From NCBI GenBank assembly GCA_024710005.1, contig JANJVQ010000001.1, positions 1-64,000 on the forward strand: DNA of 64,000 bases. The letters run 5' to 3'. Positions within the stretch are counted from its first letter, which is position 1, and the number at the start of each line of letters is the position of its first letter. Below are positions 3,698 through 9,290 of the stretch, piece by piece. The notes below the pieces were generated by a model, which was not told the DNA's origin, ran no database searches, and worked only from the letters and a program-made list of their open reading frames with translations. The position numbers and the translations under genes are program-made. The stretch is from Paludibacter sp. GTDB lineage: Bacteria > Bacteroidota > Bacteroidia > Bacteroidales > Paludibacteraceae.

Positions 3698-4100
3698 ATT
3701 GATTTATTTTTCATTAATAATTTATTATTTTCCTTACTTCCAACCACCAACTCATACCCCTCCCCCCTAACTTCAGATAAAAAACCCATCAAAACATTCT
3801 AAGCAAACGAATTATAAAAACACAAGAAAACAGAGTCATTTCGCATACAATATTTCAATTAAAGGACTTATACAGTCGCAGTGTGATAAAAATTCCCCAA
3901 ATATAATAACAAATTTTAGAAAAACAATACAACAATTTAACAATATCTCAAACTATACCAATGCACTATATTTTACTACATCCCATCAAACCCGGTTATT
4001 TTAATTCCTACAAATCAATAGATAATAAGCTACGCCTCTCCCCTGTTTCCTACCCCAAAAAGCTCAATTTTTTTGTCAAATTTTGTGGCAAAAAGCACGA
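3698..4100. other. Intergenic AT-rich DNA, nothing recognised
   Basis: About 400 bases upstream of the MORN-repeat gene. I see no convincing open frame, RNA gene or strong hairpin. It should hold the promoter of the minus-strand MORN gene, but I could not pick out a TTTG / TAnnTTTG pair with confidence. Confidence 0.5.
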
Positions 4101-4232
4101 ATTGAATTTACGTAAGGCATAAATTGAATTTACGTAGGGTGTAAAATCATTTTATGTAGGGCATAAAATTGTTTTACGTAGGGCATAAAATGAATTTATG
4201 TAGGGCGTAAAATGAATTTATTTTGCATAAAA
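4101..4232. repeat. Six-unit 22-bp tandem repeat
   Basis: Units start at 4101, 4123, 4145, 4167, 4189 and 4211, exactly 22 bases apart, with a consensus close to AATTGAATTTACGTAGGGC followed by ATA. Units differ by one to four bases and the last is partial. There are no separating spacers, so it is a minisatellite and not a CRISPR array. It ends one base before a hairpin. Confidence 0.9.
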
Positions 4233-4568: not shown

Positions 4569-5438
4569 TTATACCCATTCTTCCTGCAAAACCTCTCCTT
4601 TTATACCTACAACCGACAGCTTAACCGGGATTTTCTTTCCTGCTTCTTTTACGGCCTGCATGGCTAAACTAAGCAGTCCTCCACAACAGGGGACTTCCAT
4701 AATCACCACTTGCAGCGTATTGATTTGTGAATCCACAATCATGGATTTTATCTTTTGCAGGTACGATTCCTTGTTGCTGTCGAGTTTGGGACAGGCGATG
4801 GCCAATGTCTTGCCTTTTAAAAACCGGTTGTGAAAGTCGGGGAAACTAAAGGGCACGCAATCGGCCGCTAAAACTACATCAGCTCCTTTGAAATAACCGG
4901 CCTGTGGATTCAGCAGGTGTAATTGTACCGGCCACTGGCGCAACTGAGAAGCGGGTTCGTCGGTATGTACCGGATGCACCATTTTAAAGCCGGCACCCAC
5001 CGGTTTGGGTGCTGTAAAGCTAATTTCCTTGCTTCCGGGACATCCACCGCCCTGATGTTGTGGAACGGGCATGTTGTGTACAATTGAGAAATCAACCGGA
5101 ATTTCGTTTGCTTTTAAATAGCTTACCGCCTCTTTTAAGTATCCGAACTCACCATGTTCTTTCAGGTGCTTGAGATGCGCGAGGATGGTCTTCTCCCCTT
5201 TCGGGATCATCCTTTTGATGGTTGCAATTTCATCATAGGGCACTGCTTCACGCTCTTCTAAGGTAATGGCGCCAACCGGACAATCACCCACGCAAGCTCC
5301 CAATCCGTCGCAATACAACTCGCTGACCAACCGGGCTTTGCCGTCAATCATTTGTAGCGCTCCTTCATGACAACCCTGCACGCACAGCTCACAACCGTTG
5401 CACAACTCTTCATCGATTTTTATGATGGTTCTTTTCAT
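4569..5438 (-). CDS. 4Fe-4S ferredoxin-domain protein with C-terminal Cys motifs
   Basis: 289 residues, no signal peptide, so cytoplasmic. The N-terminus has a classic cluster motif with Cys13, 16, 19 and 23 (CNGCELCVQGC), then a second variant set Cys43, Cys49 and Cys53-Pro, one cysteine short of a standard bacterial 2[4Fe-4S] ferredoxin. Further on there is a Gly-Gly-Cys-Pro-Gly stretch at about residue 132 and a Cys-Cys-Gly-Gly motif at about residue 251, both plausible extra metal or redox sites. Proteins of this type are common in anaerobic Bacteroidota, often beside Crp/Fnr regulators, but the reaction is unknown. It lies 24 bases downstream of the cupin gene on the same strand, so the two are probably one operon driven by the promoter at 5856-5900. 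Confidence 0.85.
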   Translation of the reverse strand: MKRTIIKIDEELCNGCELCVQGCHEGALQMIDGKARLVSELYCDGLGACVGDCPVGAITLEEREAVPYDEIATIKRMIPKGEKTILAHLKHLKEHGEFGYLKEAVSYLKANEIPVDFSIVHNMPVPQHQGGGCPGSKEISFTAPKPVGAGFKMVHPVHTDEPASQLRQWPVQLHLLNPQAGYFKGADVVLAADCVPFSFPDFHNRFLKGKTLAIACPKLDSNKESYLQKIKSMIVDSQINTLQVVIMEVPCCGGLLSLAMQAVKEAGKKIPVKLSVVGIKGEVLQEEWV

Positions 5439-5462: not shown

Positions 5463-5819
5463 TTACCCTTTAATCATGATTAATATCATTTTGAACTTCT
5501 CTACTGCGGTCAACGCATGCGGTATATTAGCCGGCATGATGATGCTTTCGCCTGCCACTAATTCGTGCGGTTTACCATCGATAATTACTTCTGATTTGCC
5601 GTCAAGCACCTGTACAATAGCATCATAAGGAGCAGTGTGTTCACTCAGCACTTCTCCTTTATCGAAGGCAAAAAGTGTTACATTTCCTTTTTCATTTCTA
5701 AGTAAGATTTTACTTACGATTGAACCATCTGCATACGATACACTTTCAGCAAAACTGAATTTCTCAGCTTTTGGAAAACCTTTACTTTGTACTCCCGGAG
5801 CAAATTTATAATCAGCCAT
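5463..5819 (-). CDS. Small single-domain cupin protein
   Basis: 118 residues forming one cupin barrel. The two conserved motifs are visible: a first strand pair with a His and Glu (EVLSEHTAPYDAI, about residues 56-68) and a second with IMPANIPHAL (about residues 93-102), whose histidines and glutamate would form the metal site. The product may sense or detoxify a small molecule, but the substrate cannot be read from the sequence. It is the first gene of a two-gene operon with the ferredoxin protein and is divergent from a Crp/Fnr regulator, which suggests joint redox or stress control. The start is supported by a good promoter 37 bases upstream. Confidence 0.9.
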   Translation of the reverse strand: MADYKFAPGVQSKGFPKAEKFSFAESVSYADGSIVSKILLRNEKGNVTLFAFDKGEVLSEHTAPYDAIVQVLDGKSEVIIDGKPHELVAGESIIMPANIPHALTAVEKFKMILIMIKG

Positions 5820-5855
5820 CTTGAATGAATTTTAATTGTTGTTTAAATTTGAACA

Positions 5856-5863
5856 CAAATATA
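5856..5863 (-). promoter_or_regulatory. Bacteroidetes -7 box of the cupin-ferredoxin operon
   Basis: On the minus strand the sequence is TATATTTG, a perfect TAnnTTTG. A TTTG lies upstream but at short spacing, which fits an activator-dependent promoter because the dyad at 5885-5900 takes the -33 region. Transcription would begin near 5850. Confidence 0.7.
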
Positions 5864-5884
5864 GTGATGCTAAAACAAACAATC

Positions 5885-5900
5885 TGTAACAGTTGTTACA
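5885..5900. promoter_or_regulatory. Crp/Fnr-type operator dyad
   Basis: TGTAACA GT TGTTACA is a perfect 7+7 dyad with a 2-base centre. Its centre is about 42 bases upstream of the start site inferred from the TATATTTG box, the spacing typical of class II activation by Crp/Fnr proteins. A Crp/Fnr gene is divergently encoded 320 bases away. Binding by that protein is inference. Confidence 0.65.
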
Positions 5901-6222
5901 AGTACGTGGTATTTTTGGTGAAATAATAATTTTAAAGTATTTTTACATCCATAATGTGAATCAGAAATAGATAATTAGTTCCCTCGCTTTGCTCGGGATG
6001 ACAACTTTTCAGCGAGTATTATAACCGTCGCACTATCTTTTGCTGACTGAATAGATTCGTAGCGACGACGGTTCAGGAATTCCCGAACCCGTCGCTAAAA
6101 TTAACATAATCAATATGCTGTCAGTAGCCGACGGGGTATCATAACAATGAATACCTGTCATCCTGAACGTAGTGAAGGATCTCATATTTTGAATTTCTGA
6201 ATCGAATTAATAATAATTTGAT
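5901..6222. other. Intergenic with a strong hairpin and an inverted pair of dispersed repeats
   Basis: This holds a hairpin at 6060-6097 (TAGCGACG / CGTCGCTA outer stem, GGTTCaGG / CCGAACC inner stem, 5-base loop). It also holds two copies in opposite orientation of a dispersed repeat of the type 'GTCATCCTGAACG..GTGAAGGATCT' (about 5992-6015 and 6152-6181). A similar inverted pair lies at 31797-31875. There is no gene. Confidence 0.6.
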
Positions 6223-6891
6223 ATGAAACACAGTGATTTTCAGAGTTGTCCCGTTTGTGGCAATTTAAATATATTAGACGAAGAGGCTTTTCTCGATGAT
6301 TTAAAGTGTACCATCAGGGCGTACCCGAAAAATCAACTGATTATCAGACAGGGAGAAGTATGTGATGCCTTGTACATCCTGACAGTGGGTTCCGTTAAAA
6401 CTGAAATCATCACCGAAAACGGCAATTTAGTCAGCATAGAAACAATTGAGGCACCCAGACCTTTGGTTTCAGAATTCTTGTTTTCGGATAATAACCAGTC
6501 ACCGGTAAACGTAACAGCACTCGAAGAAGTCGAAATCATCAAAATACCCAAGTCGGAAATCGTGCGGCTGATGATGAGCAATCCTCATTTCATGCAGAAT
6601 TACCTGACACACAATGCCAACAGGACGCAGTTTTTAACGAACCGGTTGCAATTATTGTCCATCAAGACCATCAAAGGGAAATTAGCTCATTACCTGTTGG
6701 AACAGGCACAAGGGTCTTTGAAGCCCTTTGTAATCAATAAAAGTCAGGGCGAACTGGCCGAATTTTTTGCCGTTGCCCGGCCTTCGTTTGCCCGGAGTTT
6801 ATCGGAAATGATACACGATGGCATCATCCGGGTAACACGCCGTGAATACCAAATCCTGGACTTTGATAAATTAAAAGAATTGCTGGTTTAA
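6223..6891 (+). CDS. Crp/Fnr family transcriptional regulator with four N-terminal cysteines
   Basis: 222 residues: a cyclic-nucleotide-binding-type sensor barrel (about 25-135), a long dimerisation helix, and a C-terminal winged helix with a good recognition region (SQGELAEFFAVARPSFARSLSEM cut as SQGELAEFF... and PSFARSL, about 175-200). Cys9, Cys12, Cys29 and Cys47 lie in the N-terminal part; the CPVC pair is reminiscent of redox or Fe-S sensing, but the spacing differs from E. coli FNR (20, 23, 29, 122), so iron-sulfur sensing is only a possibility. It is divergent from the cupin-ferredoxin operon, whose promoter carries a matching dyad, and is followed 9 bases later by an antiporter gene, probably cotranscribed. 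Confidence 0.9.
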   Translation: MKHSDFQSCPVCGNLNILDEEAFLDDLKCTIRAYPKNQLIIRQGEVCDALYILTVGSVKTEIITENGNLVSIETIEAPRPLVSEFLFSDNNQSPVNVTALEEVEIIKIPKSEIVRLMMSNPHFMQNYLTHNANRTQFLTNRLQLLSIKTIKGKLAHYLLEQAQGSLKPFVINKSQGELAEFFAVARPSFARSLSEMIHDGIIRVTRREYQILDFDKLKELLV

Positions 6892-6900
6892 TCCAAATAA

Positions 6901-9054
6901 ATGCTTATGATACCACTGATCATCAATGATTTTACATTACCCTTGCAACATCCGGTACTGAAGTTCCTGGTGATACTTATCATCATACTTTTTGCACCTA
7001 TTTTGTTGAATAAGGTAAAGATTCCCCATATCTTAGGATTGATTATAGCCGGTGTCATTATAGGACCGCATGGAATCAATTTGCTGGAACGGGATAGCGG
7101 TATCATTCTTTCCGGTACGGCGGGATTGCTGTATATTATGTTCTTAGCCGGGATGGAAATTGATTTGGGCGATTTAAAAAAGAACAGTTTCAGAAGTATC
7201 TTTTTCGGACTGTTGACCTTTATTATCCCCATGGCATTGGGAATTATTAGCGGTTATTATTTATTGCATTTCTCCATGCCGACTTCCATCATCATCGGAA
7301 CCATGTTTGCTTCTCATACCCTGATTTCGTATCCTATTGTAAACAAGCTGGATGTTGTCAGAAACAGAGCGGTGGTTATTACCGTAGGAGGAACCATTGT
7401 CACCGTTACGCTGGCATTACTTGTTTTCGCGGTTATCATAGGCATGTCCACCGGTGGTGTTGACAATGTTTTCTGGACCAGATTATCAATTTCCCTGATT
7501 ATTTTTTCGGCTATCGTGTTGATTCTGTTTCCCATCATCGGTCGTTGGTTCTTCAAACAGTATTCCGATAGTGTATCACAGTATATTTTTGTGCTTGTAC
7601 TGGTCTTTTTGGGAGCTGTACTGGCTGAAGCTGCCGGAATAGAAGGCATCATCGGGGCTTTCCTCGCAGGCTTGTCATTAAACAGATTGGTGCCGGTGAC
7701 TTCTCCCCTGATGAACCGGATTGCTTTCGTTGGAAACGCGATTTTTATCCCGTTTTTCCTGATTGGTGTCGGTATGTTGGTGGATTATAAGGCTTTTTTC
7801 AGCGATTGGAACTCCTTGTATGTAGCGGGAATTCTGACGGTTGTAGCTACGGCTTCAAAGTTTATTCCGGCATGGATTACCCAAAAATCATTCCGCTTTA
7901 CCGCTGATGAGCGGAACATGATATTTGGGTTGAGTAATGCACAAGCTGCTGCTACCCTGGCAGTCGTATTAGTGGGATACAACGTGATTCTGGGTTACAC
8001 ACCTGACGGAGAGCCTGTTCGCCTGCTGAATGACAGCATTTTAAACGGAACCATCATCATGATTCTGGTTACCTGTACCATTGCTTCATTGGTAACACAA
8101 AAAGCTGCTGTGAATATTTCACTGGCTGAAAATACCCACGTTGAAGCGGAGGATACAGATAATACGGAGAAAATACTGATTCCCCTGCGTTATCCGGAGA
8201 CTGTTGACGAACTCATAAACCTGAGTTCTTTGTTGAAATCGAAGAAAAATCGTGAGGGGGTATATGGACTGAATATCATCAACAACGCATCCAAAGAAGA
8301 AAACAACCTGAAATTCGCGCACAAACTATTAGATAAAGCCCTGATATCAGCGTCGTCTGTTGATGTAAACATGCACAAGTTACTTCGCTATGACGTGAAT
8401 ATCGTGAATGGCATTACCAGTGTAATCAAGGAACATAATATTTCTGATTTAATCTTGAGCATTACCGAGAAGAAAGGTATGTCGGATTCATTTATTGGCA
8501 ACCTGACCGAAGGAATTCTGACTAAAAGTAACATTACCACTTTTGTTTACAGAGCTACACAGCCAATATCTACCATCAAACGACACATCGTAATCATTCC
8601 CAAAAATGCTGAATATGAAGTCGGTTTTCCCTTTTGGTTGATTAAAGTATGGAATATCGCGAAGAATTCGGGTGCTATCATGGAATTCTACGGACACGAG
8701 AAAACCCTGAACCTGATTAAGGAGGTTCATCAGAAACACCCTATTGAAGCTGATTTTAAGATATTTGAAGACTGGGATGATTTCCTGATTTTATCGAGGG
8801 AAATTAAATCGGATGATAACCTGATTGTTGTTTTAAGCAGAGACAAATCCTTGTCTTATCACAGCAATATGGAGAAAATACCGGCATACCTGAAGAAATA
8901 CTTCAATCCCAATAGTTTCATTCTTATCTATCCGATGCAGGCCGGTGTAATTGACTTTGACAATGAGAATTACATCAACCCGTCCTTACTGGAACCCATT
9001 GAGAAATTAGATGAAATTGGAAAAACGGTGGCCCGGCTGTTCCGTAAGAAATAG
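6901..9054 (+). CDS. CPA2-type cation/proton antiporter with C-terminal USP-like region
   Basis: 717 residues. The first 390 or so form about 12 membrane helices of the Na+/H+ exchanger (Kef/NapA-like) fold: an early LGLIIAGVIIGPHG helix, an FLAGMEIDL helix, a GIIGAFLAGLSL helix. The rest (about 400-717) is soluble and looks like tandem universal-stress-protein-like domains (ILIPLRYPE, then a second HIVIIPKNAE start). It would exchange Na+ or K+ for protons at the inner membrane. No TrkA-N domain is present, unlike KefB/C. The gene begins 9 bases after the Crp/Fnr stop; an alternative ATG is two codons downstream. Coupling to a redox regulator suggests stress-linked ion homeostasis. Confidence 0.9.
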   Translation: MLMIPLIINDFTLPLQHPVLKFLVILIIILFAPILLNKVKIPHILGLIIAGVIIGPHGINLLERDSGIILSGTAGLLYIMFLAGMEIDLGDLKKNSFRSIFFGLLTFIIPMALGIISGYYLLHFSMPTSIIIGTMFASHTLISYPIVNKLDVVRNRAVVITVGGTIVTVTLALLVFAVIIGMSTGGVDNVFWTRLSISLIIFSAIVLILFPIIGRWFFKQYSDSVSQYIFVLVLVFLGAVLAEAAGIEGIIGAFLAGLSLNRLVPVTSPLMNRIAFVGNAIFIPFFLIGVGMLVDYKAFFSDWNSLYVAGILTVVATASKFIPAWITQKSFRFTADERNMIFGLSNAQAAATLAVVLVGYNVILGYTPDGEPVRLLNDSILNGTIIMILVTCTIASLVTQKAAVNISLAENTHVEAEDTDNTEKILIPLRYPETVDELINLSSLLKSKKNREGVYGLNIINNASKEENNLKFAHKLLDKALISASSVDVNMHKLLRYDVNIVNGITSVIKEHNISDLILSITEKKGMSDSFIGNLTEGILTKSNITTFVYRATQPISTIKRHIVIIPKNAEYEVGFPFWLIKVWNIAKNSGAIMEFYGHEKTLNLIKEVHQKHPIEADFKIFEDWDDFLILSREIKSDDNLIVVLSRDKSLSYHSNMEKIPAYLKKYFNPNSFILIYPMQAGVIDFDNENYINPSLLEPIEKLDEIGKTVARLFRKK

Positions 9055-9107
9055 ATTATAGGTATGATTCTTCGTTTTAAATGCAAATAAAACCTACAGA
9101 TAAAGGC

Positions 9108-9290
9108 AACCTTATTTCCAACCTTATTTTCTTACCAAACAACCTTAGTAGCAAATGAACAAACACCTCATCAAACAAAACCTTATTACCTTATTTTAAT
9201 TTGAAATAAGGTAATAAGGTCAGAAGATATATGTGAATAAATCCTGCTACTAAGGTTGTTTGGTAAGAAAATAAGGTTAGAAATAAGGTG
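9108..9290. repeat. Nested inverted-repeat element, copy 1
   Basis: An outer pair of arms of 45 bases (9109-9153 with 9245-9289, one C-A mismatch at 9119/9279) encloses an inner perfect hairpin of 17 bp (9180-9196 with 9204-9220, ACCTTATTACCTTATTT, 7-base loop). The word ACCTTATT is used in both levels. It lies between two convergent genes (antiporter and hisA), so it could terminate both, but copy 2 lies between divergent promoters, so termination is not its defining role. It encodes no protein. The pattern resembles a MITE or a structured intergenic repeat. Confidence 0.9.

Follow-up and report, generated by a model that had tools for sequence, protein, structure and literature searches.

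The closest described system is the HcpR2 regulon, for which the binding motif GTAACnnnnGTTAC was derived and tied to a proline at CRP position 181, according to the accessible part of Rodionov et al. 2005 (PMC1274295). Work on C. difficile found that hcpR turns on frdX-hcp in response to NO and that frdX knockdown causes NO sensitivity; the available text of that report presents FrdX as needed for NO tolerance and calls its function unclear (PMC12915319). The P. gingivalis HcpR structure is PDB entry 9DAY (PMC12750200), and Met68 of this protein has been assigned as its heme ligand. HcpR of B. thetaiotaomicron was also reported to bind heme, in the accessible section of a preprint (PMC13370916).

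The locus described here comes from a Paludibacter genome of 3.24 Mb (36 contigs, 99.85% complete). We refer to the whole stretch of DNA that was analysed, 64,000 nucleotides long, as the window. A leftward cupin-ferredoxin pair and a rightward Crp/Fnr gene flank a perfect dyad, and the features are as follows.

4569-5438, minus strand: FrdX-type ferredoxin, 289 aa, with an N-terminal double [4Fe-4S] domain (one Cys missing) and a C-terminal part with five further invariant Cys.
5463-5819, minus strand: cupin, 118 aa (Pfam Cupin_2, PF07883), first gene of the inferred operon.
5856-5863, minus strand: predicted -7 element TATATTTG for cupin-frdX, lying 21 bp from the dyad on the cupin side.
5885-5900, no strand: HcpR2-type dyad TGTAACAGTTGTTACA, holding GTAAC-N4-GTTAC; exact and conserved.
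5910-5917, plus strand: predicted -7 element TATTTTTG oriented towards the regulator gene, with 9 bp between it and the dyad.
5952-6205 (ends approximate), no strand: dispersed-repeat insertion of about 255 bp in the regulator leader, with partial copies in the genome at 70-83% identity.
6223-6891, plus strand: HcpR2-type Crp/Fnr regulator, 222 aa (Pfam cNMP_binding and HTH_Crp_2; nearest structures 9day and 1o5l; Arg186-Pro187).
6901-9054, plus strand: CPA2-type cation:proton antiporter, 717 aa (Pfam Na_H_Exchanger), 9 bases after the regulator gene.

With the HcpR2 regulon, as far as the available text of PMC1274295 describes it, the locus shares a Crp/Fnr protein with an Arg-Pro pair, a GTAACnnnnGTTAC site, a ferredoxin-like target and an anaerobic host; it differs in that its genome lacks hcp, the cupin leads the operon and a second exact site precedes a TonB-MFS-HemN cluster. 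The regulator is homologous to P. gingivalis HcpR (9DAY; PMC12750200) over about 200 aa, with the flap region aligned, but has Pro where that protein has Gln at 181, and Ile62 in place of Met68. The C. difficile frdX-hcp/hcpR locus resembles ours in having a regulator beside a NO-induced ferredoxin gene, the function of FrdX being unsettled in both; unlike ours it contains hcp, and our sequence comparison was with a Roseburia homologue only (PMC12915319, available text). Our literature search found no report on HcpR in Paludibacter and none joining hybrid cluster protein, cupin and Bacteroides-type bacteria. Judged by homology and gene context, the locus belongs to the HcpR-FrdX regulon as a member without hcp, and its promoter follows a conserved rule.

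The original prediction had named a perfect dyad, TGTAACA-GT-TGTTACA, which was found exactly at 5885-5900. It is the sole exact match to TGTAACAGTTGTTACA within the window. Scanning the genome gave two exact sites, one before the cupin-frdX and regulator genes and one before the TonB receptor-MFS-HemN cluster, against about 0.02 expected genome-wide under an order-1 Markov model. Perfect 7+7 symmetry alone is not rare in the window and proves little: with a 2-base spacer we counted 13 such dyads, where 12 Markov simulations gave 3-10, and with spacers of 0-8 there were 100, where the simulations gave 43-84. The dyad at 5885-5900 stands above chance because across Bacteroidales it is kept between the same pair of divergent genes.

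The usual genus form of the dyad is AGTGTAACAnnTGTTACACT, and TGTAACnnnnGTTACA was found beside the regulator gene in 19 of 21 genus loci (the window and 20 relatives). On the cupin side, TAnnTTTG, which we take to be the Bacteroidetes -7 element, lies exactly 21 bp beyond the dyad in 18 of these 19; the remaining locus (L108) has a -7 element in the same place with one mismatch. We also compared 79 named FrdX loci, mostly from Bacteroidales, which share genomes with the genus set and are not independent of it. They comprise 42 crp-type loci, 22 Rrf2-type loci, six edge loci and nine without a regulator; L200, which has no FrdX ORF, was excluded, and one locus listing omitted L001, L002, L011 and L012. 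GTAACnnnnGTTAC was present upstream in 36 of the 42 loci with a divergent crp gene, and the dyad in none of the 22 with an Rrf2-type gene upstream. Outside this comparison it was present in one edge locus and two regulator-less loci. In 34 of the 36 crp-type loci with the dyad, TAnnTTTG lay at 21 bp and nowhere else within 60 bases. In 22 of the 79 loci (L151, L157, L158 and others, all lacking the dyad) an Rrf2-family gene takes the place of crp, and the operon appears to have exchanged one type of regulator for another.

The 21-bp spacing to TAnnTTTG fits class II activator geometry, and it is from this fixed spacing that we infer a position near -41.5. With the start placed from the -7 element TATATTTG, the dyad centre falls about 41-42 bases before the predicted cupin start. 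The original prediction had put the dyad about 42 bases upstream, where class II activators bind; the spacing agrees with this placement, and the dyad proved to be conserved before orthologous cupin genes. On the opposite side, the offset between dyad and regulator-facing -7 element varies among relatives (9, 10, 17, 18 or none). The position of TATTTTTG in the window would suit autorepression of the predicted regulator gene promoter. The 21-bp spacing hardly varies and makes a promoter signature by which HcpR regulons in Bacteroidales can easily be searched for.

Both domains of the regulator, PF00027 (cNMP_binding) and PF13545 (HTH_Crp_2), scored above cut-off. A sequence search of solved structures returned 9day as the best match (E 4e-23), then 1o5l, while a profile search placed 1o5l first and 9day second. 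Arg186-Pro187 correspond to CRP positions 180/181, and both residues are found in all 21 genus rows; two other Crp/Fnr relatives found in the genome have, by eye, different residues at this recognition pair. The dyad is identical to GTAACnnnnGTTAC, the motif published for HcpR2. We therefore assign the regulator to the HcpR2 type because of its GTAACnnnnGTTAC site, its Arg-Pro recognition code and its kinship with 9day and 1o5l. The divergent Crp/Fnr protein had been proposed as the controller, and the motif match and recognition residues make it the likely binder of the dyad.

The repeat insertion between dyad and regulator start is absent from the sister locus L105. It probably lengthens the regulator leader, since the -7 element at 5910-5917 precedes it. 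At gathering thresholds, Rfam searches matched only four tRNAs, with no RNA family in the HemN leaders or the intergenic region of the window. The antiporter gene adjoins crp in the window, L107, L108, L274 and L275 (the window genome, G030, G034, G068 and G069); its co-control with the regulator, also part of the original prediction, is plausible within this small clade, but the linkage is not general. A long near-palindromic repeat (AAGGTTGTTTGGTAAGAAAATAAGGTT on both strands) follows the antiporter gene at 9100-9290.

In the ferredoxin, the first motif (C13-x2-C16-x2-C19-x3-C23) is complete and the second (C43-x5-C49-x3-C53) lacks one cysteine; with the five extra cysteines C133, C194, C216, C251 and C252 this is the arrangement originally described, and all twelve cysteines were invariant among 59 aligned homologues. 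Its nearest named relative, from Paludibacter sp., is 98% identical, and named relatives are mostly from Paludibacter or other Bacteroidales. We found an Hcp ORF in 46 of the 79 named FrdX loci, within the stretch examined; 47 of 49 such ORFs lie on the frdX strand, and three that were tested were recognised by HMM as hydroxylamine reductase/hybrid cluster protein. The ferredoxin shares 38% identity (over 98%) with the 4Fe-4S protein encoded in a Roseburia hcp-crp-4Fe-4S cluster. On this homology and gene context the ferredoxin is FrdX, the sequence comparison being with the Roseburia homologue.

Two models of the FrdX C-terminal domain had mean pLDDT of 72.4 and 76.8. Beta-carbonic anhydrases gave the best structural match at Z 7.7 (rmsd 3.0, 98 aligned, 1g5c), under the tool's cautionary limit, and dominated the Foldseek list with an E of 0.019 at best, below the trust limit; we assign the domain to no family. 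Short AT-rich repeated units (TAGGGCATAAAATG-like) follow frdX at 4040-4230, where relatives often have hcp. The frdX frame appears broken in the sister genome G029 (L105/L276), a single draft in which sequencing or assembly error is possible.

No PF03063 match was found in the window's own genome, against matches in 5 of 14 control genomes that served as positive control. Among 48 genomes of the genus, hcp was present in 24 and the regulator in 36: both in 20, the regulator alone in 16, hcp alone in four and neither in eight. Several of these genomes are incomplete drafts, and some hcp absences may be gaps; of the 16 with the regulator alone, seven are 96% complete or better. As hcp is missing from the genome, we file the regulator as an hcp-less HcpR2 variant and not as a regulator of hcp. 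The window's lineage appears to have lost hcp and kept the regulator, site, cupin and FrdX, the absence being that from the assembly. The sister G029 carries an Hcp on another contig, with no dyad in the stretch examined and closest (73%) to L135; we treat it as doubtful evidence here. Paludibacter-type genomes with regulator, site and FrdX but no Hcp are natural strains that separate FrdX from Hcp.

About 72 bp downstream of the second exact dyad begins a TonB receptor gene; next come an RhtX/FptX- or AmpG-like MFS protein (scoring below cut-off) and HemN (above cut-off), and protoporphyrinogen oxidase (HemG, above cut-off) is encoded about 200 bp beyond HemN. Of the 26 TonB matches that were compared, the exact dyad precedes five, those of highest similarity (57-100% identity), while the other 21 have 3-6 mismatches to it at best. 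All five genomes lack hcp (completeness 82-99.85%) and have the antiporter beside the regulator gene. Two of the five have a -7 element at 21 bp, and all five have another, TACTTTTG, that overlaps the dyad. Control of the HemN operon could be of either sign, because the overlapping TACTTTTG suits repression. DNR/NnrR sites have been reported before hemN in proteobacteria, these regulators being NO-responsive and their control of hemN predicted (PMC1274295, accessible text); in our literature search this was the only paper with HcpR and hemN together, and hemN is placed there under DNR/NnrR. It is probable, from the sites found, that the HcpR-FrdX regulon extends to porphyrin acquisition. If so, porphyrin uptake and HemN would be tied to an HcpR-type regulator much as hemN is to DNR/NnrR in proteobacteria. 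In L051, L052 and L053 the dyad is followed, before the TonB receptor gene, by a terminator-like hairpin (with a T-run in L051 and L052) that has no Rfam match.

We consider it likely that an HcpR2-type regulator receives an NO-type signal through heme, binds the dyad and activates cupin-frdX in class II fashion, in a lineage that has lost hcp. The signal would most probably be nitric oxide or a related nitrogen species acting at heme, as in HcpR. The regulator would bind as a dimer and, from a dyad centred about 41.5 bases before the start, could recruit RNA polymerase to transcribe cupin-frdX. It would probably damp its own promoter as well; self-limited expression is likely because the dyad abuts the regulator's own -7 element. 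In many Bacteroidales relatives the operon runs on into hcp, for the NO-removing hybrid cluster protein, and FrdX, as a putative electron carrier or redox enzyme, may pass electrons to Hcp; in the window's lineage they may go to another partner or to a site of its own. The target process, which the original prediction had left open, is very probably nitrosative-stress defence, because of the HcpR2 motif and residues, the kinship with HcpR and the presence of FrdX beside hcp in 46 of 79 loci. Context and homology thus place the locus in the HcpR-FrdX (hcp) nitrosative-stress regulon, although the genome has no hcp. The absence of this defining target counts against the explanation, as do Ile62 at the Met68 position and the disrupted frdX frame in G029, which could reflect decay of the module.

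The original prediction had instead pointed to four cysteines, C9, C12, C29 and C47, all of which are present in the translation of 6223-6891. FNR has the same Crp/Fnr fold and also carries N-terminal cysteines, but its cysteine spacing and binding site differ from those of the window regulator (C9-x2-C12-x16-C29 plus C47), and in this respect the earlier description of a pattern unlike FNR holds. A sensor of O2 or NO built like FNR on an Fe-S cluster at these residues would accord with the fact that the window protein and 11 of 21 genus rows have all four, and with an N-terminal C-x2-C followed by C-x3-H in many other Bacteroidales orthologues. The proposed sensing set is, however, not conserved: Cys9 and Cys12 are found in 13 of 21 genus rows (absent from eight), Cys29 in 11 (absent from ten) and Cys47 in all 21; in a wider set of 48 rows, which overlaps the genus set, the counts are 30, 29, 14 and 28 for C9, C12, C29 and C47. 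Orthologues without Cys9, Cys12 or Cys29 keep the same dyad at the same spacing. Since the first three cysteines are lost without change in either, the four-cysteine cluster is, on these alignments, not a conserved sensor, and on these counts we dropped an FNR-like cluster as the conserved mechanism. HcpR proteins also lack the FNR cysteine motif in the available text of Rodionov et al. (PMC1274295), and we regard an Fe-S sensor in the window as very improbable. The N-terminal C-x2-C/C-x3-H of Bacteroidales HcpR-type regulators (L153, L155, L156, L165, L167, L172) is a possible metal site, altered or lost in Paludibacter.

The heme ligand itself raises another reading. The Met68 position aligns with Ile62 in the window protein; Ile is also found in the sister, and Met in 19 of 21 genus rows. 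Heme sensing by the window regulator is thus a prediction to which Ile62 is an objection, other ligands being possible. The regulator of this lineage might then read heme or porphyrin supply in place of NO and mainly govern porphyrin uptake and HemN/HemG, in keeping with the Met-to-Ile replacement and with the only other exact dyad, which stands before TonB receptor-MFS-HemN with HemG next and is shared by the five closest orthologues, none of whose genomes has hcp. We think this unlikely: the cupin-frdX promoter has the same architecture as in hcp-bearing relatives, and NO-responsive DNR/NnrR are also predicted to act on hemN (PMC1274295, accessible text), so hemN does not speak against NO. 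We give a low but not negligible probability to another idea, that in the clade of the window, G030, G034, G068 and G069, which has no detectable hcp, the NO regulator HcpR was rewired from hcp to porphyrin uptake and late heme synthesis and FrdX became a stand-alone redox enzyme, with a metal site possible from the five extra Cys in a C-terminal domain that lacks a confident structural match. The missing hcp, the repeat insertion in the regulator leader and the broken frdX frame of the sister G029 would also fit a relic whose remaining parts decay and do little. There is little chance of this, as the three ORFs of the module in the window are intact, neither the dyad nor the -7 element departs from its exact form, and genomes with the regulator but no hcp recur (16 of 36 genus genomes with the regulator, drafts in which some absences may be gaps). 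It is harder still to believe that the dyad is a repressor site at cupin-frdX. It abuts the regulator-facing -7 element, and TACTTTTG overlaps it in the HemN operon, but the 21-bp spacing to the cupin/frdX -7 element is fixed over many genera, as activator geometry, and loss of hcpR lowers frdX-hcp in C. difficile (PMC12915319, available text).

Activation of cupin-frdX by an HcpR2-type regulator remains our preferred reading, and for its wider regulon only the two exact sites were trusted. At most two mismatches were found at 34 sites in the genome, against 17 for the reversed control, and a regulon built on near-matches was set aside. Six sites have at most one mismatch. One is inside a coding sequence (L004, which we take to be metK), and in the other five TAnnTTTG follows at 20-22 bp, a distance at which it is missing from all 28 two-mismatch sites. 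A one-mismatch dyad lies 20 bp before TAnnTTTG at an nfnA-like gene (G000:C25:233299-233314; L046 near 1501) and was matched, with two mismatches, in just one other locus among 30, the near-identical L214. Another near-match precedes a GH32/DUF4960 gene. A further one precedes a PhoB gene in a phosphate-type cluster with similar TGTAAT-type repeats and may be a Pho site. At G000:C10:14579-23228 (L252, L003, L253), TGTAAT/C-type inverted repeats stand before a porin-like gene, phoB and a permease-like gene; these are perhaps Bacteroidetes Pho sites.
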